A stretch of DNA of 26,084 nucleotides from a virus, in IMG/VR virus record IMGVR_UViG_3300023294_000085, positions 1 through 26,084 of that record. One strand, given 5' to 3'. The position numbers and the translations under genes were made by a program. The notes beneath the pieces were generated by a model that had not been told where the DNA came from, did no database searches, and was given only the letters and a program-made list of their open reading frames with translations. Below are positions 2,676 through 26,084 of the stretch, piece after piece. How positions within the stretch are numbered: position 1 is the first letter of the stretch; every line of letters starts with the position of its first letter.

Positions 2676-3718
2676 TCAGCAAACCCGTGCATGACCACAA
2701 CTCTCGCACCTTCATGTGGTGCTTCTATCACAGAATCTCCGCCAGTGAATGACAACACACTTCCGCTTATTGTGTAGTTTGTGTCAGGCTCCTGCATCAC
2801 ACCATCCACATATAATATCACAGTTTTTTCGTTTGTGGGAGTTATGCTCATTGTGAATTGTGTGGTGGATCCGTCACCGGTGAACACATCTTTGGTGATC
2901 TCGCCTGCTTCAGATGAAGTACGCAGTGAGGTATATGTTGATCCATCTTCTGACACCTCATACTTGCCGGTCTGCGAGTTGAAACGCAACATACCTGCTG
3001 TGGCAGAAGGCCTTGCCGCTGTGTTACCTGTGGGTAGATTGATAGCAGTGGTTGAGTTAAAAACAAACTGTCCTGTTCCTGCTGTGTCTAGAGTAAAGTC
3101 TGCATCGGTTACATCCTGATTGATAGTAGATCCGGCAAATGTGAAATTGCCTGTAGGATCTAAACTCGACACTAAGTTTTGTAATCCTTTAGAGCCTGTG
3201 TATCGTCCTCCGGCTATGTACACCACCTTGCCTGTGAAATTTACACCATTGGGTAGATTGGCTCCTATAAAATGCAACACACCGGATTGATAGTCAAAGA
3301 ACCATTCGTCGTTGTTGCCTGATCCTGTGGCACCTACCTGTGTGCCAGATGCCGCGGCATTGCTCGCATCACCAGAACTGTGTACATATACTTTTACCTG
3401 ATAGGTGGATCCAAATTCAGGTGGTATCCAGTCTGTGAGACCGGTCTTCCAGGTTCTATTAGCCTCTCCAGTGGTGTTGTCCACAGTACAAGCATCTGGA
3501 CTGGATGTGGGGTACACAGTCACAACACCGGTGGATGATCCTGGCAGGATTGTGGGTATTTGGTCTGCCGCATTCCACGTGGTGTCACCTCTCAACAGTA
3601 AAGGAGATGCTATAGATTCATTGGGTGCTTTCTTGTTTGCATTGGTGTCAGTTTTACTAACTCCATATCCTATCTTCTTCCAGAGATAATCAACTTTTTT
3701 TGCGTCTGTGATTGCCAT
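2672..3718 (-). CDS. Virion structural protein with C-terminal fibre/collar-type module
   Basis: A 348-aa protein. The N-terminus (MAITDAKKVDYLWKKIGYGVSKTD) is compact. The middle (residues ~90-175) contains a WFFDYQSGVLHFIG segment that looks like a small beta domain. Residues ~200-270 carry the SATAGMLRFNSQTGKYEV motif seen in phage fibres. The last ~75 residues (FTGDGSTTQF, ILYVDGVMQEP, NYTISG, VVVMHGF) form a module also present at the C-terminus of the protein at 8307-8771. Its start codon shares a base with the stop of the 1216-aa gene (TAATG), so the two are translationally coupled and probably assemble at the same site. A surface structural role is likely; the precise organ (collar, baseplate or fibre) cannot be assigned. 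Confidence 0.7.
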   Translation of the reverse strand: MAITDAKKVDYLWKKIGYGVSKTDTNANKKAPNESIASPLLLRGDTTWNAADQIPTILPGSSTGVVTVYPTSSPDACTVDNTTGEANRTWKTGLTDWIPPEFGSTYQVKVYVHSSGDASNAAASGTQVGATGSGNNDEWFFDYQSGVLHFIGANLPNGVNFTGKVVYIAGGRYTGSKGLQNLVSSLDPTGNFTFAGSTINQDVTDADFTLDTAGTGQFVFNSTTAINLPTGNTAARPSATAGMLRFNSQTGKYEVSEDGSTYTSLRTSSEAGEITKDVFTGDGSTTQFTMSITPTNEKTVILYVDGVMQEPDTNYTISGSVLSFTGGDSVIEAPHEGARVVVMHGFAD

Positions 3719-6700
3719 TATGCGATGCTCAGTGCTGTCACACTGTCTCCTGATTCTAGTTTAATTCTTATTAGTATGTTATTACCTGTGGCATTGGAAG
3801 CATTCTCAGATCCCAGTGTTAGAGTGAATGATTGTGCAGAATATGTTGTGTTGTCTATGATTCTATCTCCAGATGTAAATGCACAACCGTTGGATCCGTT
3901 ACCGCCATTGCCTGTGTCAGCTCCTGGCACACCCGATCCTGCATATGACAACGAAGCATTCAACCATCCGTTGATATCAGAGGCATCATCGATCGCTGTA
4001 CCCGGTGACGCAACAAAAAGTCCTGAAACTTTTCCTGTTAGAGTCACTGTAAAGTTTGCAGTGGAAGTTCTTCGGAAAGCGAACGTGTAGTACTGGGCTC
4101 CACTTCTTCCTGAGTTTAGATCTGGTCCAGCTGGCAGATGGCCTGAGCTCAGATCTGTTGTGTAATGTTGTATGGTACCTGCACTGGTACTCGTTGGTCG
4201 AACGATTGCTTCTTGGGTTCCTGCCACTGTGACTGCACCAGACCATGCATTATTTGTGTAGTAGTCGGCATTTGAGAAAGCCGGTGTGTCTGAGGCGGAA
4301 CCCAATCCGCTTATTCGCACAGCATCGTCATCGTGGGTGGCTCCTAAAGAGTCACTAACTGCGATACCACCTTGATCTAAATTAAGACCTCCCGGTGTTT
4401 GTGTGAAAACTTGAATTTTTGTTGCATCTGCATCATAAGAACCTGCACCATTACAGTTGGTGGCTCTTGCTTTGATAGTGGAAACTGAGAACATGTTTGA
4501 TGTAGTAAGAGGCACTGTGACTGCTCCAATGGTATAAGCAGACGACACCCCGGTGTCTGTGTTGGGTATACCACCTGTTAAGAATGTGCTCGAACCATCT
4601 ATGTTTGCATATGTAAAATCTAAATTGGATATAATAGAGCCAGAACCCTCGGACACTGTGCCTGGTTCAATTTCATGTGGATTAGTTATATCAGCGTAGG
4701 CCTGTCCTGTTAGGTTAGCAATGGTTGTACCGGTTACTGTTAAACTTGGTGAGCCTGAATCGTAATAAGGTATACCTGAAACATACTGGAATGTACCAGC
4801 CGCATTTTGAGTCACTGTGCCAATACTAGTGGTTGGAGCAGATGTAACATCGTCTTTGAGCACATGTACATAGTTGGTGTTACCTGTTGCAGAATGTTCT
4901 AATCTCTGTGCTGTCAATCCTGCCGAGTATGCTGACAGTGCTTTTGTTATTTTTGCTGTGAACACTTGATAGAAATCTTGAGGATACGCACCATCAACTT
5001 CGTCGTAATCTCTTTGATTGCTAACAACCAAGGAAGTAAACGTTCCGTTTTCTCCTGCTGTTGCTGAGAACGCTTTAGCACCATCAGCGGATGCATTGAT
5101 GCTCGCTGTTAGTGTGCCAGCGGCACCATTGTAGGCGTTTGCAACTGTTGCTGTGTCGATTGTAGAGGTACTTGTGTACCTTCTTGCAGTTGTAGAATTT
5201 AATGCAGTACCAGCAGACAATGTATCGGCTGAACTGGTGTTGTCGGTAAATGAAGCACACAGCTTGGGAGATGATCCTTGTGCTGAATCACTTAACGTCA
5301 AACTCTTTGTAGATAGGTTGGCCGGCGCCGAAGGCACTGCTTTCATGATCCACGTAAGAGTTTCTTCATCGTCTTGGAAGAATGTGTCTGGTGTGCCATA
5401 TGCTCGAAATCTTGTTGTGAAAGATCCTGCTGACACTCCTGTAAAGTTCCTTGTTAGAGTTGTTCCAACACTGCCGGCAGTTGATCCGTCTTCTGCTATT
5501 GACACCAAAGAACTTGAATCACTGAAGTAATCATAGTCGTAGTTGTCTGCATTCTGCGAGGTATTGGTAAATGTTGCTGATGCTCTGTTAGCACCAGTTA
5601 GATCTGTGTGATCATACAACGTGTATTGATTGTTGCCTGTTCCGGTTGATACTTTATCTGCCGTGCCTGCTATGTTCGCTCTCACATTGGGCTCCACAAT
5701 AATATTAATATTTTTTGAGAACGGTGTGCCAGAATGTCCAGTGGCAAGACTTAGACTGGTTGTGAAAGTGGATGTTACACCATTTGTTTGATTGGCAGAA
5801 CTTAAATTAAATGTATTAGAAATATCTTCGTCTGTGTCTCCTGCACTTCCAGAACCTACATTAACGTTGGTGTTGCTGTCACCTTCTCCAAAATTCCAAG
5901 TGTACACATTGGCTGAGAATGTGCTCTGTGCTCCAGGATTGGATGCTGTGTCGTTTGTGAATGTAACAGGGAATCCTGATGTGCCTTCTTCGTTGATTCC
6001 TCGTATGGTGGAATCTGTTGTGGAATAATCTACAGCGTGTACAGAATACACATCAAAGTTTTTACTCGCAGTTGCAGGTATCACTGCTGGGTCTGCTGTG
6101 TTATGAGATAACAATTTTAATTTTACAGTATATCGAGTATCACCTGTGCCTGACCCGACCGTGGATCCGTCATCGTCTGCAGAGTTGTTGTAGGTGTGTG
6201 AAAGTCTAGAACCGGATCGACCGCCGGCCGCCGAATCTGATGCTACGGAACTGGTTGAGGTATCTCCCCAATCTACTTCGTAGGTCACTGTGGCACTGCC
6301 GGTGTTGGTGGTTACGTTTTCGAGATACACAGTGGCACCGTTGTCTGCTTTAGTGATTGCTGATCCACCCGACGCGGCCGCATACATAAAGAAATTTGGC
6401 ACAGGTTCTGCTGTGTAAATCACAATGTACTGTGTTCTTGTTTTTGATGCTGTGCTTCCTGCTGAGCCTGCTGTGGCTGTGTGATTGTATGCTGTCACTG
6501 TTATGGTGTAAGGAGAATTTGTATTTGTACTGTAGGTGTGACTTGGTGTGGTATCTGTGGTGGCTGTGGTGGCTGATTCACCTGTGCCCCAATCGATGTC
6601 ATATCTAGTAGCACCGCCACCCACTGTTGAGATGGTGAGAGTAACTGCTAATCCTGCTGACCCAGTGGTAACATCCGCAGAAAAATCCACAGACTTCACA

Positions 6701-7368
6701 TAGGTGTTGTTCCGAATATTTTCCATGGTCTCGTTTAGATCATCCACAGCATCTGTTATAGATCTCGATCCCACCAATGCTGAATAAGCACCGTCTCCAA
6801 ATGAGGAGTCGGCAGGAGTGCCCAACAGTATGTCCCCGCCATCACCCGAAAATGCTCCCGATGAAACAGCACTGTCCACATATGCTTTGGTGGTTAGATC
6901 AGTGTCACCTACCGGATCTGCCGCTTGTATTTTTGCTAGAGTAACACCTGATAAATCTGTTGTTGTAGAACCATCAGATGTGGTAGTTCCAAATCGAAAT
7001 ACATCCAATGTTTCGTCCCAGTACAACACAGCCGGATTACTGGCACCGCCTCTGTTGATCATTATACCTGCATCTGTGGCCGCAGAGTTGTTGGAATTGA
7101 TCACTAAAATATTGTCTTCTACTGATAGATTCTGTGAATCTATCGTGGTTGTTGTACCTGCTACTGTTAGATCACCTGTGATGGTTACTGAATCTTGAAA
7201 TCTTGCTGTACCGTTAACATCCAGAGCATAATTGCCTGGAGAATCGGTTTTAATACCAATCCTGCCGTTAGACACATCTACGAATAATAAATCCGTCTGG
7301 AAGGCAATATCCGATGTACGAATCAGATTGGATTCAAGTAATTCTCCACCTATTCTATTAATTGCCAT
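3718..7368 (-). CDS. Large PKD-domain virion adhesin/fibre protein (1216 aa)
   Basis: The longest gene in the window. Residues 1-50 share the DLAFET-type fibre N-terminus (MAINRIGGELLESNLI..SDIAFQTDLLFVDV) with the gene at 1-1661. Residues 66-165 hold a module (VAGTTTTIDSQNL, INRG, YWDE, FGTTT, TKAYVD) shared with the genes at 1 and 9094. Three PKD-type immunoglobulin-like domains follow, at about 228-318 (DIDWGTG... HTY), 325-442 (EVDWGDT... HTYNNS) and 446-560 (YTWNFGEGDSN). The rest is a long Thr/Ser/Gly-rich beta stalk with no cysteine-rich or enzymatic region. PKD domains are known in cell-surface and phage proteins that bind carbohydrate or protein, so receptor contact is a reasonable inference. 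It is the first gene of a two-gene unit with the one at 2672. Confidence 0.75.
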   Translation of the reverse strand: MAINRIGGELLESNLIRTSDIAFQTDLLFVDVSNGRIGIKTDSPGNYALDVNGTARFQDSVTITGDLTVAGTTTTIDSQNLSVEDNILVINSNNSAATDAGIMINRGGASNPAVLYWDETLDVFRFGTTTSDGSTTTDLSGVTLAKIQAADPVGDTDLTTKAYVDSAVSSGAFSGDGGDILLGTPADSSFGDGAYSALVGSRSITDAVDDLNETMENIRNNTYVKSVDFSADVTTGSAGLAVTLTISTVGGGATRYDIDWGTGESATTATTDTTPSHTYSTNTNSPYTITVTAYNHTATAGSAGSTASKTRTQYIVIYTAEPVPNFFMYAAASGGSAITKADNGATVYLENVTTNTGSATVTYEVDWGDTSTSSVASDSAAGGRSGSRLSHTYNNSADDDGSTVGSGTGDTRYTVKLKLLSHNTADPAVIPATASKNFDVYSVHAVDYSTTDSTIRGINEEGTSGFPVTFTNDTASNPGAQSTFSANVYTWNFGEGDSNTNVNVGSGSAGDTDEDISNTFNLSSANQTNGVTSTFTTSLSLATGHSGTPFSKNINIIVEPNVRANIAGTADKVSTGTGNNQYTLYDHTDLTGANRASATFTNTSQNADNYDYDYFSDSSSLVSIAEDGSTAGSVGTTLTRNFTGVSAGSFTTRFRAYGTPDTFFQDDEETLTWIMKAVPSAPANLSTKSLTLSDSAQGSSPKLCASFTDNTSSADTLSAGTALNSTTARRYTSTSTIDTATVANAYNGAAGTLTASINASADGAKAFSATAGENGTFTSLVVSNQRDYDEVDGAYPQDFYQVFTAKITKALSAYSAGLTAQRLEHSATGNTNYVHVLKDDVTSAPTTSIGTVTQNAAGTFQYVSGIPYYDSGSPSLTVTGTTIANLTGQAYADITNPHEIEPGTVSEGSGSIISNLDFTYANIDGSSTFLTGGIPNTDTGVSSAYTIGAVTVPLTTSNMFSVSTIKARATNCNGAGSYDADATKIQVFTQTPGGLNLDQGGIAVSDSLGATHDDDAVRISGLGSASDTPAFSNADYYTNNAWSGAVTVAGTQEAIVRPTSTSAGTIQHYTTDLSSGHLPAGPDLNSGRSGAQYYTFAFRRTSTANFTVTLTGKVSGLFVASPGTAIDDASDINGWLNASLSYAGSGVPGADTGNGGNGSNGCAFTSGDRIIDNTTYSAQSFTLTLGSENASNATGNNILIRIKLESGDSVTALSIA

Positions 7369-17642: not shown

Positions 17643-19700
17643 TTATACTAGGGAAGTGCTCAAGTTTGCAAGTCCTTTTTTGGTATCCATTGTGTTTTTT
17701 GCCACGGTGGAATTTATTCCCACCAGTGTATTTAAATGTTTTTCGCTCTTATCCATTATCTGTGAAATATTATCCAAGTTCCTACTCAATAGTGAGCTGA
17801 TTGCGGTGATATTGTCGGTTTCTCCGCTGTTTCCTTTGTCTGGCATTGCAGATGCAGTCACACTGGCATTCACAGTAGGTTTAACTGTCAGGCTGTCCAC
17901 GGCCGCGACAATCTTGCCCATGGGAGATTCCCTCGGTATTATGGCCTCTGGTCCATGCACCCGAACAACAGTGCCTTGGGTTCCGAAATTTGGAAATCTT
18001 TCTCCGGTTACATTTTTCGTTCCTGTCTTGAAACCATCGTAACTCGCTTCTCCGGAGATGTCGTTTGAGAATGCTGTATTTTGATAGATCTGCATAGGAT
18101 CCGCGGGACCGTTTTTGTCTGTTACTCTTAAAGCACGTGACGAGGGATCAAATGCCATGATAGTGGCCATGGAACTTTTCTTCATTATGTCTCCATCCAA
18201 CTTATTTTGACCCAGTGTTGCGATTGCTTTTTCGAGCAGACCCATAGACGATGCTGTAAATTCCATTGCGCCTGTGGTCAGAGATTCTGCCCCTGATTTG
18301 GCTACCTTGAGTGAATCTCCCATGCCGACTAAACTTTTACTGACCGTGTCTCTGTATGCCATCTCGTTGGCATCTGTGGTATTTCTTGCTCTTTGTAATC
18401 GAGTGGTCTCGTTCACCACACCAGCATTCTCGCCGTTGACTATGCTTGCTCGAGCAAGAGATCGAGTGAAGTCACTAATGGCTCCTTCGTTGGTTGCTCG
18501 ACCCACGATATTTTGAAACTCAACAACATCCATGGCCCCGGACTTGAGAGCTCGGATCGCAGGTATCAACTGTCCGCGGGCAACTTCGTCCAAGAGGGCA
18601 GTGTCGGTTTCCGTGGCTTGACCAAATGCCACCACTTGGGTGATCAACTTACCGATCATCGTGTCGGCTCCTCCAAAACTGGCAATTGTGCCATTGATGG
18701 CCGCTCGCTGTGCTGGACCTAAGGATAACAGTTGTGATTGTAGCACCCCGTTGGCCGCAAGTTCTCTGTTTCTTTTATCTATCGCATCAACATTTTCTCC
18801 GGTTAATTTTGACAGTCTCACTAGATTTTTGATGTAATGGCTTGATCTGGCAATCTCCTCGTCGGTGTTGCCCAGAACCAATCTACCCCTTGCCCTCTCC
18901 AACATTAGATAGGTTTGGAAATATTCTGATGTTTCTGTGAGGTTCAATCCAAATTGAGCAAACTGTTCTTGTGTCACAGTTCGTAACGCACTCTGGAATT
19001 GACTCATTCTCTTAACACCGGCGTCCACAGATCCAAAGAGTTGACCCATCACTTCGGAGTTTTTTGATACCATGTCAACGAAATCCAATATCGGCATCCT
19101 GGCCTCATGGGCCGCATTTCTTAGATTGATGATCGATGACTCAAATGTGGCACCGGTCTGTGCCAGTTGCTTGAATATGCCCACGTTGAAGTCCGCCGAC
19201 TTGGCCAGTGCTGTTAGGCCCTTGCCCAGGAAAGGTACGTCGCCAAAATCTTTTACCGCATCGTTGAAGCCTTCGATTCTTTGTTCGGCATCCATGAATC
19301 TCGCACCGGTGTTGAATATTCCCTTGCCAACGGCCAGTATGCCCTCGACCAGTGTGGCCTGTGCTCCTATGAAACTTTTTAATCCGGTAGTTGCCTTTGT
19401 GGCAACTGCCGCAAACAAACCTTGTTTTCGTGTGCTTTGTCTGATCGATGATAATTCTTGTAATAGTTGGATCCTTTTAATTTTACCTGCATCAGTTTGG
19501 TCTTGTTTACTAGCTCTTAGTTGTCGTAATTCTTCCTGTTTAGCTCTGATATAAAGATTGGTAATTTTTCTTGCGCCTTCTTCACTCTTTGCATTTTTTC
19601 TGAGGGTGTCGTGGGTGCTCTGACTGACTTTGGAAAGTTTATCCAATTCGCCGGCAGTTTTCTTCGCCGACTGTTCCAGTTTTTCTACATCATCCGTCAT
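17643..19700 (-). CDS. Tail tape-measure-like protein (gp29 functional equivalent)
   Basis: A 685-aa, mostly helical protein. Residues 1-95 are a charged coiled coil (KLEQSAKKTAGELDKLSKV... QEELRQLRASKQ). A glycine/alanine-rich hydrophobic stretch at ~100-135 (LFAAVATKATTGLKSFIGAQATLVEGILAVGKGIF) follows. Near residues 569-588 is the F..FG.QGTVVRVHGPEAIIP motif seen near the C-terminus of many tape-measure proteins, then a Val/Thr linker and a final coiled coil. Such proteins set tail length and pass through the tail tube. T4 gp29 is 590 aa. The location next to portal, away from other tail genes, differs from T4. A late promoter lies at 19764-19771. Confidence is good for a tape-measure type and lower for orthology to gp29. 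Confidence 0.7.
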   Translation of the reverse strand: MTDDVEKLEQSAKKTAGELDKLSKVSQSTHDTLRKNAKSEEGARKITNLYIRAKQEELRQLRASKQDQTDAGKIKRIQLLQELSSIRQSTRKQGLFAAVATKATTGLKSFIGAQATLVEGILAVGKGIFNTGARFMDAEQRIEGFNDAVKDFGDVPFLGKGLTALAKSADFNVGIFKQLAQTGATFESSIINLRNAAHEARMPILDFVDMVSKNSEVMGQLFGSVDAGVKRMSQFQSALRTVTQEQFAQFGLNLTETSEYFQTYLMLERARGRLVLGNTDEEIARSSHYIKNLVRLSKLTGENVDAIDKRNRELAANGVLQSQLLSLGPAQRAAINGTIASFGGADTMIGKLITQVVAFGQATETDTALLDEVARGQLIPAIRALKSGAMDVVEFQNIVGRATNEGAISDFTRSLARASIVNGENAGVVNETTRLQRARNTTDANEMAYRDTVSKSLVGMGDSLKVAKSGAESLTTGAMEFTASSMGLLEKAIATLGQNKLDGDIMKKSSMATIMAFDPSSRALRVTDKNGPADPMQIYQNTAFSNDISGEASYDGFKTGTKNVTGERFPNFGTQGTVVRVHGPEAIIPRESPMGKIVAAVDSLTVKPTVNASVTASAMPDKGNSGETDNITAISSLLSRNLDNISQIMDKSEKHLNTLVGINSTVAKNTMDTKKGLANLSTSLV

Positions 19701-19781: not shown

Positions 19782-20639
19782 ATGGTAGAAAACACAAACC
19801 CACTGAGCAAGTATTATCGACAACCAGCGATCTATATCACTCTGCCCACCAAAGGCAAGTACTATGGACCAGACGTGTTCACTCCCACAGAAACTGGAGA
19901 GATACCAGTATTGCCCATGAACGCCAAAGACGAGCTGGCATTTAAAACACCAGACGCAATGATCAGCGGTCAAGCCACCGTGGATGTGATCAAAAGTTGT
20001 ATACCCAACTTTAAGAATCCTTGGCAGATGACCAATTATGACACGGACACCATACTGTTGGCCATTCGAGCGGCCACCTACGGTGAGTCCATGGACATCA
20101 CATACACAGTGCCAGGCACAACAGAAAAAGTAACCCAATCAATCAGTGTGGTGCAACTGTTAGAGGGATTAAAAAATACAGAGATTCAAGATCAATTCAC
20201 TACAAAGGATAGATTCATAGTAAACGTGGCTCCGTTGAATTACAAAACATTGAATCGAATACAGACTGCACAGTATGAACAAGAGAAAATTTATTCCACT
20301 GTACGTAACAGCAATCTATCAGAACAACAAAAAGGTGATCAATTTGTAAAGAGTTTTAAACTGCTCAATGATATAAATTTTGATCTGCTAGTAGAAGCTG
20401 TCACAGAGATCACAACACCCGAAGGCGTTGTGGTAAAAGACAAAGAAATGATCAAAGAGTTCTGCAACAACTGTGAAGCTAAACTGGTCAACGAGATACA
20501 GAACGAGCTGGGTCGTGTGAGAATGCAGGCACAGATACCGCCGGTAAAAATTCAAGCCACAGAAGAACAGATCAAACTTGGAGCACCTGTCACATACGAA
20601 ATACCAGTGACATTCGACAACTCAAATTTTTTCGTATAA
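19782..20639 (+). CDS. 26: Baseplate hub/tail assembly protein gp26-type (T4_baseplate family)
   Basis: A 285-aa protein. The N-terminal block YYRQPAIYITLPTKGKYY, EIPVLPMNAKDELAFKTPDAM, VIKSCIPNFKNPW and TILLAIRAATYG is the recognisable core of the T4 gp26-type baseplate family. In T4, gp26 is needed for baseplate hub assembly. T4 gp26 is ~208 aa, so this one carries an extra C-terminal region including a central helix (EQEKIYSTVRNSNLSEQQKGDQFVKSF). The zero-frame product ends NSNFFV. The last codons run over two overlapping slippery heptamers (20624-20633), and a -1 shift would extend the protein by 76 residues. No Shine-Dalgarno sequence is evident. Confidence 0.85.
   Translation: MVENTNPLSKYYRQPAIYITLPTKGKYYGPDVFTPTETGEIPVLPMNAKDELAFKTPDAMISGQATVDVIKSCIPNFKNPWQMTNYDTDTILLAIRAATYGESMDITYTVPGTTEKVTQSISVVQLLEGLKNTEIQDQFTTKDRFIVNVAPLNYKTLNRIQTAQYEQEKIYSTVRNSNLSEQQKGDQFVKSFKLLNDINFDLLVEAVTEITTPEGVVVKDKEMIKEFCNNCEAKLVNEIQNELGRVRMQAQIPPVKIQATEEQIKLGAPVTYEIPVTFDNSNFFV
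20624..20633 (+). promoter_or_regulatory. Putative programmed -1 ribosomal frameshift site
   Basis: In the zero frame the codons read A AAT TTT and T TTT TTC. Both AAATTTT (20624-20630) and TTTTTTC (20627-20633) fit X XXY YYZ. The zero-frame stop follows within two codons (20637-20639). A short TGTC/GACA hairpin lies 12 bases downstream (20646-20657), but no strong stimulatory structure was seen. Confidence 0.65.
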
Positions 20640-20863
20640 CACTACTGTCAAAGGACAACTCTGAAATCATCGCATATCTTAAAGATCTGGAAAACGAGAG
20701 TAAAAATCTAAAATTGGAAATAATGAAAATGTGTTGGTACATGCGTGGCGGACTGACCTGGCAGGAAGCACTAGAGTTAAGTCCAGACGAGCGGGCTATT
20801 GTAGGGGACCTTGTCAAAGACAACCTGGAAACTACCAAAAAAACCGGACAACCGTTCTTTTAA
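20627..20863 (+). CDS. -1 frame extension of the gp26-type gene (tail-assembly chaperone-like)
   Basis: The -1 frame is open from upstream of the slippery site to the TAA at 20861-20863. After a shift it adds 76 residues: RITLLSKDNSEIIAYLKDLE, a charged helix, then MCWYMRGGLTWQEALEL and a conserved-looking end KTGQPFF. The frame has no ATG near its beginning; the first in-frame ATG is well inside (about 48 codons remain), so an independent start would lose the helix. The fused product would be about 360 aa. This architecture, a short protein plus a rarer frameshifted longer form, is known for tail assembly chaperones such as lambda gpG/gpGT. The coding nature of the segment is quite clear; the mechanism of expression is inference. 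Confidence 0.7.
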   Translation, partial: FFRITLLSKDNSEIIAYLKDLENESKNLKLEIMKMCWYMRGGLTWQEALELSPDERAIVGDLVKDNLETTKKTGQPFF

Positions 20864-20924: not shown

Positions 20925-21209
20925 ATGAGCACCAAAGAAATACTGATTGAGCTTAAAGCACACATTAAAGACCTCTCCACAGAGAAGGATCGTTTGAATG
21001 ATGACCTCAAAGCCAAAGACAGTCGAATCAAAATGTTACTCACCAAAATAGAACATGCCAACGACGAAGTTCAATCCATGGGAAAGAAACTGTCGGAGAA
21101 CAATCGGCGCATGGAAGAAATGGAAGACGAGTTACTCGAAGTTAAAAAAACCCTAAAAGATTCACAACATGAACCAGCTGATGCCACAGAAGAACAGTCA
21201 GCAGACTAG
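20925..21209 (+). CDS. Coiled-coil protein, function unknown
   Basis: A 94-aa protein, almost entirely a charged coiled coil (ILIELKAHIKDLSTEKDRLNDDLKAKDSRIK... MEEMEDELLEVKKTLKDS) with an acidic tail. I do not recognise a family. It overlaps the next gene by 40 bases, if 21169 is that gene's start. It follows the gp26 extension by 61 bases containing AT-rich sequence (TATAGTATAATATAATG) that could hold a promoter but matches no late consensus. Confidence 0.65.
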   Translation: MSTKEILIELKAHIKDLSTEKDRLNDDLKAKDSRIKMLLTKIEHANDEVQSMGKKLSENNRRMEEMEDELLEVKKTLKDSQHEPADATEEQSAD

Positions 21210-22922: not shown

Positions 22923-22933
22923 ATGATCTTGAG

Positions 22934-22941
22934 TTTAAATA
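22934..22941 (+). promoter_or_regulatory. Late promoter variant (TTTAAATA) close to start codon
   Basis: One mismatch from TATAAATA, five bases ahead of the ATG at 22947. It supports the later of two in-frame starts and a leaderless transcript. The same TTTAAATA-short gap-ATG layout recurs at 24149. Confidence 0.45.
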
Positions 22942-22946
22942 CCATT

Positions 22947-24038
22947 ATGTCAGCAACCTCCGTATACAGTATTGATTTACCAGAGTATGTCTCGAATTTT
23001 TTTAAAGAAATAGGAGGGATATCACTCAGTGCAATCAACCAATCACGGTTGTTAGAACTGTGCAACCAGAGCACGGTAAAACACTTGATGGTGTACGAGA
23101 CTTTTGTTGTAGATCACACAGAGATACTCATGAACCTGTTGCAACAACGGTGTGTGGAATCTCTGACGATATACAACCACCACCCGTTCAAATTTACAGA
23201 TGCACTAATGGATCGTTTAAACACAGTTGCCATGACAATCGATATTAAAATAATAGTCAATGGTTATTACGAAAAGAATTACAGTAATATAAAAATTTAT
23301 CATGAGCAGACCTACGAACACTCGATCAGTCACTCTTTTGTGCTGTTGCTGTCACAGATACTACACAAGAAACGTCGACCTACAAAAACATTTTTAATTC
23401 AAACAGTGTGCAAAGATGATTTTAGAAAAACTGTGAGCGACCATCTCCGAGCTTCGGCAATATGGTCAGACTGCATTGCACCCCCGCGGATCGATCGGAG
23501 ATCTGTATATGAAGACTTTTTTCATGAAAAAAAACACAAGTTATTACAACAGTTTGGCGAACACACTCAACCCATGCATGCATTACACTCATTTGGCAAC
23601 GGCCTGCCCAACTTTAAAATGTATGAGCAGGCATTCTGTGAACTGATACTTGAAACTATGAACTCTGGCAGTTGGCATTTTACGGAAAAAACATTCAGAC
23701 CCATTGCTCTGGGTATTCCTGTGGTGCATTTAGGTCATAAACCCATGCATGCTCGCTTGTTGGCCACGGGATATCGTTTGTATGACAACGGATTTTATCA
23801 GCAGTGGCACACGGATGTTGCGTTGGAAAAAAAACTGCCCTATCTAGAGAGCTTCTTGACACACATCAAAAATGACAAGTCAGCACAGGCACAGATGGAA
23901 CAGATTGCACAGCACAACTATCAGCATTTCTGGAACCATCGAAAGAACCATTACTACACAAACTTACAGAATATGTTTGATGACATAGTCGGAGAGAACA
24001 CACTGACACACAAAATTTACAAACAACTGGACTTTTAA
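22947..24038 (+). CDS. Glycosyltransferase, GT10/fucosyltransferase-like
   Basis: 363 aa from MSATSVYSI; an in-frame ATG at 22923 would add eight residues but would lie upstream of the promoter-like TTTAAATA. The C-terminal half contains FCELILETMNSG, then FTEKT..P (residues ~245-250), IALGIPVVHLG and LLATGYRLYD, the sugar-nucleotide-binding signature of GT10-like phage and bacterial glycosyltransferases. The N-terminal half is a divergent Rossmann-like region. It probably modifies phage or host surface glycans, or transfers sugar to a virion protein; donor and acceptor are unknown. It is followed after one base by a truncated GIY-YIG reading frame. Confidence 0.65.
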   Translation: MSATSVYSIDLPEYVSNFFKEIGGISLSAINQSRLLELCNQSTVKHLMVYETFVVDHTEILMNLLQQRCVESLTIYNHHPFKFTDALMDRLNTVAMTIDIKIIVNGYYEKNYSNIKIYHEQTYEHSISHSFVLLLSQILHKKRRPTKTFLIQTVCKDDFRKTVSDHLRASAIWSDCIAPPRIDRRSVYEDFFHEKKHKLLQQFGEHTQPMHALHSFGNGLPNFKMYEQAFCELILETMNSGSWHFTEKTFRPIALGIPVVHLGHKPMHARLLATGYRLYDNGFYQQWHTDVALEKKLPYLESFLTHIKNDKSAQAQMEQIAQHNYQHFWNHRKNHYYTNLQNMFDDIVGENTLTHKIYKQLDF

Positions 24039-24879: not shown

Positions 24880-25777
24880 AATTTTTCATACCCCGGGTGC
24901 TTTTGGCAACTATGTTGCTTTTTTGTTAGACTGTAAAACAAAAGGAAAAATAGGTGAAAATCCTTTTACAGAGTCTGGGTCGAGTCATGCTAGGGAAGTA
25001 ATAACACAAAGTTGTGATATAGTTTTGTCCGATGAATATGAAATTTTTTTACAATGCACTAAAGACGACATAGGCATATACTGGCCAAACGAATATTTTT
25101 TCTATATATTACACAGTGCCTATGGCAGAACCAACCACGGACAATATGGCAAATGTGGTGTGAGAGCCCTCCAAGAAAATACGTGGCAATGGTTATCCTT
25201 ACACACAGGGCACAATATATTGGGTAATGATTTAGAGCTGTTTGTTAGCGACTTGGAAAAGATGTATAACTTTAAGTTAGATGAAAAGAATCAAAAAGTT
25301 CCTATCAATCTGTTACGTCATTATTTCTTTTTTCACTTTATTAAATTTTTTAATAACAAGTTGTATAAGAAAAACAAAGAAATTTACAACAATAACATTG
25401 TAAAAAAACTCGACATTGAAACAATTTTTGATTATGACAAATTAAAAAAATTTTTAGATATAGGGTTTGATTTTGAAAACACTCACAACCAATTTATAGA
25501 AAAAAACTCATCATTGATTGCTTATAATACACAAAAGCAAATATTGAGTTCTGTAAAAAACGAACAAGAATGCAAAATTAACGACCTAGATATAATTACC
25601 CAAGCAGGCGTTTTGTATGAATTGGAAAAACATTTTTATGACATTCCGTTTTATAATTTAGATTTTAATTTTAAAAATACATCGCAAATACTAGATTACG
25701 TAAAACAGTTTCCTAACTATATGAGAAAGCCAAATAATTTATTTTTAGAACATTGGAGAATATACAATGACAAATAA
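24866..25777 (+). CDS. Hypothetical protein, AT-rich, coupled to the SGNH-like gene
   Basis: A 303-aa protein that I do not recognise. The N-terminus (EHRIFHTPGAFGNYVAFLLDC) has a strand-Gly-rich turn-helix layout, and SGSSHAREV follows; this loosely recalls sulfotransferase-like or other P-loop-like folds, but no clear Walker motif is present. The middle is Asn/Lys/Phe-rich. One stretch, 25381-25440, is only 22% GC, far below the structural genes. It overlaps its neighbours on both sides (14 bases with the SGNH-like gene, 11 bases with the GIY-YIG gene), so all three are translationally coupled. Confidence 0.6.
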   Translation: MSEHRIFHTPGAFGNYVAFLLDCKTKGKIGENPFTESGSSHAREVITQSCDIVLSDEYEIFLQCTKDDIGIYWPNEYFFYILHSAYGRTNHGQYGKCGVRALQENTWQWLSLHTGHNILGNDLELFVSDLEKMYNFKLDEKNQKVPINLLRHYFFFHFIKFFNNKLYKKNKEIYNNNIVKKLDIETIFDYDKLKKFLDIGFDFENTHNQFIEKNSSLIAYNTQKQILSSVKNEQECKINDLDIITQAGVLYELEKHFYDIPFYNLDFNFKNTSQILDYVKQFPNYMRKPNNLFLEHWRIYNDK

Positions 25778-26084
25778 TTGGACATACGAAGGCAAAGTTG
25801 TAAACGAGTTGCCGGATTGGGTCATAGGATTTGTCTACCAAATTACAAATACTGCTAACGGCAGGATGTATATTGGAAAAAAATTAGCAAGATTCAAAAG
25901 GTCACGAAAACCATTAAAGGGTAGAGTTAACAAAAGAAGATACACAGTTGATTCTGATTGGAAATATTATTATGGATCCAGCGATGAGCTGTCAGCTGAC
26001 GTGTTGAAGTTAGGAAAGGAAAACTTCGCAAGGGAGATACTGTTCTACTGTAAATCGAGATCAGAACTTTCTTACGTGGAGGCA
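25767..26084 (+). CDS. GIY-YIG endonuclease-like protein (partial, runs off right edge)
   Basis: 106 codons lie inside the window. GFVYQITNTANGRMYIGKKLARF carries the GIY-YIG core (the first motif is FVY, then YIG at ~35-37). KRRYTVDSDWKYYYGSSDEL, then FAREILFYCKSRSELSYVEA, match the extended DW..YYGSS and C.S..ELSY.E blocks of the phage GIY-YIG subfamily. The conserved Glu of the last block is present. Such proteins act as homing or DNA-processing nucleases in T4-like phages. The C-terminus is outside. GGAG precedes the start. The truncated copy at 24040-24126 shares its first 28 residues. Confidence 0.8.
   Translation, partial: MTNNWTYEGKVVNELPDWVIGFVYQITNTANGRMYIGKKLARFKRSRKPLKGRVNKRRYTVDSDWKYYYGSSDELSADVLKLGKENFAREILFYCKSRSELSYVEA

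Follow-up and report, generated by a model that had tools for sequence, protein, structure and literature searches.

A gp26-type gene of this virus very probably yields two tail assembly chaperones, one short and one long, through a -1 frameshift on the heptamer T TTT TTC near its end (probability about 0.9). The gene lies in what we call the window, which is the whole stretch of 26,084 nucleotides that was analysed. The slip site, the open -1 frame under selection, the missing start, the deep conservation and the homology to T4 gp51 and gp26 were all observed.

The short-form gene and its -1 extension

The features of the locus, with the evidence for each, are the following:

19782 to 20639, plus strand: short form (TAC-N, T4 gp26-type), 285 aa and stop; PF12322, phrog_150, AlphaFold2
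20624 to 20630, plus strand: second canonical heptamer A AAT TTT, overlapping the first and judged incidental; sequence
20627 to 20633, plus strand: slippery heptamer T TTT TTC, in frame, site of the -1 shift; sequence, relatives
20637 to 20639, plus strand: short-form stop codon, 3 nt past the heptamer (one codon later); sequence
20633 to 20863, plus strand: -1 frame extension (TAC-C, T4 gp51 C-terminal type), 76 aa and stop; conservation, dN/dS, AlphaFold2
join(19782..20633,20633..20863), plus strand: long form, 360 aa; junction NFF/RITLL
17643 to 19700, minus strand: divergent neighbour, 685 aa, candidate tape measure protein; homology to RaK2-type neighbours

The short-form gene belongs to the T4 gp26 family (PF12322, E 1e-8; phrog_150, "baseplate hub", E 3e-14). 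It ends with the codons TCA AAT TTT TTC GTA TAA, in which both A AAT TTT and T TTT TTC are in frame as X XXY YYZ ahead of the 0-frame stop. The predicted tryptic peptides that tell the two products apart are LGAPVTYEIPVTFDNSNFFR across the junction of the long form and LGAPVTYEIPVTFDNSNFFV at the C-terminus of the short form. The coordinates given in a preliminary description of this locus were correct when checked on the sequence, and so was its statement that the -1 frame is open with no good start of its own. This frame is open from 20483 to 20863, and ATG, GTG and TTG are absent from it both upstream of the slip site and in the first 20 codons downstream. The earliest internal starts of the extension lie about 28 codons in, beyond its conserved residues. 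At least 60 open -1 codons are found in 15 of the 66 ORFs, the chaperone gene included, and the length of the open frame was therefore dropped as a stand-alone argument because it is weak. Protein conservation and dN/dS, rather than open-frame length, settled the programmed frameshift reading.

Both parts of the long form were predicted confidently by AlphaFold2, the short form with a pLDDT of 90.9 and the extension, which is all-helical, with a pLDDT of 91.3. Neither domain had a meaningful match in the PDB by Foldseek, and the short-form fold matched no solved chaperone there. The predicted structures of gp26-type proteins from many phages do match the short-form fold. Uncharacterised proteins of about 500-550 aa from other large phages, namely Erwinia Special G, Ralstonia RSF1 and RP12, Aeromonas PS1 and Klebsiella Eowyn, also have predicted folds like that of the short form (E 1e-6 to 4e-3, TM about 0.5). 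These phages are phiKZ-like, and the predicted resemblance makes the proteins candidate chaperones in them.

Conservation of the slip site

Relatives were sampled at 116 loci, and clustering of their extensions at 70% identity left 48 non-redundant representatives. When viral contigs were scanned with the extension, 230 relatives came up and 80 of them were read; two scans through gp26 provided 24 further true relatives. One of the two search patterns spanned the FFR residues, which could have biased the sample. However, 39 of the 80 loci from the extension scan did not match this pattern and still carried T TTT TTC. All 80 had T TTT TTC in frame with the same layout, and the 24 loci found through gp26 gave the same result, with T TTT TTC and the -1 layout. 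The preliminary description had suggested comparing gp26-type genes of other marine T4-like phages at this position, and the comparison among relatives showed that the slippery heptamer and the -1 ORF are conserved; the heptamer is T TTT TTC in 47 of the 48 representatives and T TTT TTT in the other. The -1 domain always follows the heptamer at the 116 loci, with one fragment in which the domain runs off the contig. The stop is 3 nt past the heptamer in 34/48 relatives, and protein conservation (FFR..LL) starts exactly at the slip site. Sequencing error as the source of the frame break is excluded by dozens of independent contigs.

The heptamer is kept beyond what the amino acids require. The codon ahead of it varies (AAT, AGT, CAT, GAT, ACT, CGT, TAT or GCT) and ends in T without exception among the 48 representatives, whereas C-ending synonyms are common in the rest of the same genes (for example, AAC 321 vs AAT 483). 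Elsewhere in the same genes of the relatives, 31% of Phe codons are TTC, and T TTT TTC was seen in frame a single time in 13,750 codons, which makes its presence at this site more than chance. The preliminary description had named two slippery heptamers, and both are present and in frame, but only T TTT TTC is kept; AAATTTT was rejected as a shift site and as part of the conserved signal because its first bases vary among relatives.

The same arrangement reaches well-known phages. With the extension alone as query, tblastn found the jumbo rhizobiophages Atu_ph07 and Phosso at 34-35% identity. The gp26-type gene ends with T TTT TTC in Atu_ph07, Phosso, PA5oct, Serratia BF, Munch, 121Q and RaK2 and with T TTT TTT in RAS14, and in these eight phages the -1 frame carries on as FF[RQY]..L. 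The layout is also found in the cyanophages S-RIM50 and S-RIM4 and in Vibrio phi-ST2. Some relatives are on 300 kb contigs, and the group therefore includes jumbo-size genomes.

A different ending was seen in four Ackermannviridae (L130, L132, L135 and L136), whose gp26-type genes end with GTTTTC, GTTTTT or ATTTTC instead of TTTTTTC. Their -1 frame is conserved, with HLIFE.DL in three of the four. Ackermannviridae phage 3M has G GTT TTC at the end of its gp26-type gene, the slip site of T7 gene 10. The sequence at the Ackermannviridae junction suggests another -1 slip motif rather than stop-restart, and these phages possibly use the same frameshift trick with another heptamer.

Selection on the extension and the question of a separate start

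The -1 extension is under strong purifying selection. Over 113 extension pairs, the median dN/dS was 0.155 in the -1 frame, compared to 1.18 and 1.72 in the other frames. Together with the conservation of the slip site, this supports the programmed -1 frameshift that the preliminary description had proposed.

Several records annotate the extension as a separate ORF (Phosso ORF 319, Atu_ph07 gp687, 121Q gp595), and in a few relatives the stop overlaps with an ATG (as ATGA in Atu_ph07 and Phosso). This would fit an extension that is translated from a start of its own as a separate small gene, or by stop-restart where gp26 ends. However, the window offers no ATG, GTG or TTG until about codon 28, past conserved residues, and the FFR..LL conservation begins right at the slip site. 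Among the 48 representatives, a stop in the -1 frame lies no more than 12 nt upstream of the slip site in 28. Up to codon 30 of the extension, 5 have none of the three start codons and 13 have no ATG, and a Shine-Dalgarno-like sequence ahead of an internal start was seen in only 3, all at least 16 codons in. An independent start is unlikely because of these upstream stops, missing starts and rare Shine-Dalgarno-like sequences. In addition, no relative of this type lacked the slip site or had a Shine-Dalgarno-led start near the junction. We regard a separate gene or stop-restart as highly improbable and frameshifting as the source of the extension.

RNA structure downstream of the slip site

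Folding energy of the RNA was compared to that of dinucleotide shuffles and averaged over the representatives. The mean z was -2.1 in the 75 nt starting 5 nt past the heptamer, near 0 along the gene, and back to about zero 25 nt further on. The dip was sharp in most relatives. Many relatives have a possible stem of 9-16 bp starting 6 nt past the heptamer, such as GGCUUUUGA pairing with UCAAAAGCC. The pairing partners differ among clades, and because of this one fixed consensus stem register covaries only weakly. RNAalifold on 45 aligned sites gave no consensus structure. A stimulatory stem is likely in many relatives. For the window and its nearest relatives, no clear downstream structure was found, with a z of about -1.2 to -1.4 for the window and values near 0 for most of L013-L025, and a stimulatory stem is at most possible in the window's phage. 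Such a structure is not essential to this class of -1 frameshift.

The position of this signal also bears on how the -1 product is made. The site is a homopolymer T run, and RNA polymerase could slip on the six T instead of the ribosome. Polymerase slippage usually needs a run of about nine, whereas nearly all relatives have six T. Moreover, ribosomal slippage agrees with the phase to the codons, with a C as the seventh base in 47/48 and with the RNA structure at +5 nt. Transcriptional slippage is thus extremely unlikely, and ribosomal frameshifting is preferred.

Relationship to T4 gp26 and gp51

T4 gp26 and gp51 both match PF12322 and phrog_150 and are therefore paralogues. On phrog_150, which has 282 positions, gp26 matches to 235 and gp51 to 280. 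In a profile-profile comparison, the first small alignments gave nothing against T4 gp26 and gp51, and deeper alignments of the fused proteins did match. With hhalign, residues 5-248 of T4 gp51 aligned with the frameshift-fused cyano/Vibrio protein at a probability of 97.5%. The probability was 76.6% for gp51 against the fusion of the window's clade and 95.6% against all fusions, with the extension covered, while the alignment of T4 gp26 with the fused product ended at the junction. The profile phrog_634 ("baseplate hub assembly catalyst") matches the C-terminus of gp51 and the cyanophage extensions; for the window's extension, Pfam and PHROGs gave no family. The simplest reading of these alignments is that the short form corresponds to gp26 and the long form to gp51, which would be two genes in T4 and one frameshifted gene here.

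The T4 proteins are listed as hub assembly chaperones (PMC3004832). It is conceivable that the protein is instead a structural component of the baseplate hub, as its name says, and that the extension is a decoy or a decaying remnant. Pfam and PHROGs both use that name, and some genetic studies placed gp26 in the T4 hub (PMC3004832). However, the extension is strongly selected and present across very distant phages, and gp51, the long form in T4, is essential yet missing from the particle (PMC3004832). A structural hub protein with a useless extension is very unlikely for these reasons. The homology suggests that the product is not chiefly a baseplate part and would be a short and long tail assembly chaperone pair, the T4-type counterpart of lambda gpG/gpGT. 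The preliminary description had likewise suggested that the baseplate protein could be, or come from, a chaperone pair, and the T4 gp26/gp51 homology supports this.

Neighbouring genes and the rest of the window

RaK2, 121Q, BF and Munch have a homologue of the divergent 685-aa neighbour at the corresponding position (blastp E 3e-7 to 2e-3), and the likeness to a tape measure protein comes from one annotation, in the RaK2 record. The window's protein had no match in Pfam or PHROGs. In the cyanophages and Vibrio phi-ST2, a large uncharacterised gene directly follows the chaperone pair. Judging by this homology, the product of 17643-19700 may be the tape measure protein, which the chaperones would be expected to serve.

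Directly downstream of the chaperone gene, 20925-21209 encodes a 94-aa protein whose only matches are weak ones of coiled-coil type. Positions 22945-24036 (1.1 kb) are missing from an otherwise 99.94% identical contig (L009). The missing part is almost exactly the 371-aa ORF at 22923-24038, and by this comparison it is a recent insertion or deletion. A SegE-type GIY-YIG endonuclease gene (25767-26084; PF19835, E 1e-28) is cut by the end of the window. On the minus strand, 3718-7368 and 3-1661 encode very large tail-fibre-like proteins with repeats (IDGAIIGANSAAAGTF), of which the 1216-aa protein had no match in Pfam.

Proposed mechanism and comparison with known systems

From the features described above, we infer that ribosomes slip, how often they do so, that the protein is a chaperone in this phage, and which protein is its client. 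The majority of ribosomes would terminate at 20637 and release the 285-aa short form (TAC-N). On T TTT TTC, a minority would move back by one base, bypass the stop and add the 76-aa helical domain, giving the 360-aa TAC-NC. If the pair works as lambda gpG/gpGT do, the tape measure protein (probably the product of 17643-19700) would be coated by the short form, and the added domain would let the few long forms bring in tail-tube subunits.

As in lambda, there would be a short form and a rarer -1 long form of a helical chaperone, with a tape measure gene (here a candidate) adjoining. The sequences are unrelated, and the tape measure candidate is divergent here instead of downstream. The slip site of lambda gpG/gpGT is G GGA AAG, in contrast to T TTT TTC here. 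The gene shares PF12322 and phrog_150 with T4 gp26/gp51, and gp51 aligns with the fused product to its end. T4 differs in having two paralogous genes without a slip site, and none was found in Aes508 or avDM1 either, which also have both genes. The TAC genes of Vandenendeviridae and Andersonviridae similarly have a -1 frameshift where TAC-N ends and an unannotated TAC-C, but the slip motif is GTTTTT and the phage families are others (phage Adele; PMC12846349).

Tail assembly chaperone genes of T4-like phages, with T4 gp26/gp51 as the pair, were identified by Vladimirov, Gautam and Davidson (Virology 2022, 566:9-15), as related by papers that cite them (PMC10885494, PMC12846349). The PRFect paper cites that work for some T4-like phages in which a short copy and a long fused one take the place of frameshifting (PMC10885494), and the phage Adele paper cites it for poly-T slip sites that T4-like phages have in their TAC-N genes (PMC12846349). 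As these papers present it, the family and the short/long logic are the same as here, and T4 26 and 51 are the separate-gene version. A frameshifted chaperone is therefore already known in kind among T4 relatives, and the window's gene is a well-supported new member; the conservation statistics, including the dN/dS of the extension, and the downstream RNA signal are additions from the present analysis. The abstract of the 2022 study reportedly states that frameshifting is conserved in several T4-like groups and that T4 uses genes 26 and 51.

The preliminary description was not aware of frameshifting as a standard annotation for gp26-type T4-like genes. This agrees with the records of Atu_ph07, Phosso, PA5oct, Serratia BF, Munch, 121Q, RaK2 and RAS14, in which the long form is unannotated and the extension is an unlinked small (orphan) ORF, truncated or absent. 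The identification of T4 gp26/gp51 as the chaperone pair, however, is already in print according to the citing papers.

We give about even odds to a broader reading for the T4 superfamily, including the jumbo phages. Frameshifting would be general and probably ancestral, T4 26/51 would be a late duplication that replaced it, and most lineages would have an unreported stimulatory stem about 6 nt past the slip site with clade-specific partners.

Ordinary gene callers miss this long form. The definition of the slip site and junction leads to an exact peptide and reporter test. In records of marine and jumbo phages, a "baseplate hub" gene and an orphan or missing small ORF become one gene with two products, and independent data favour essential T4 gp51 as the long form of the chaperone.
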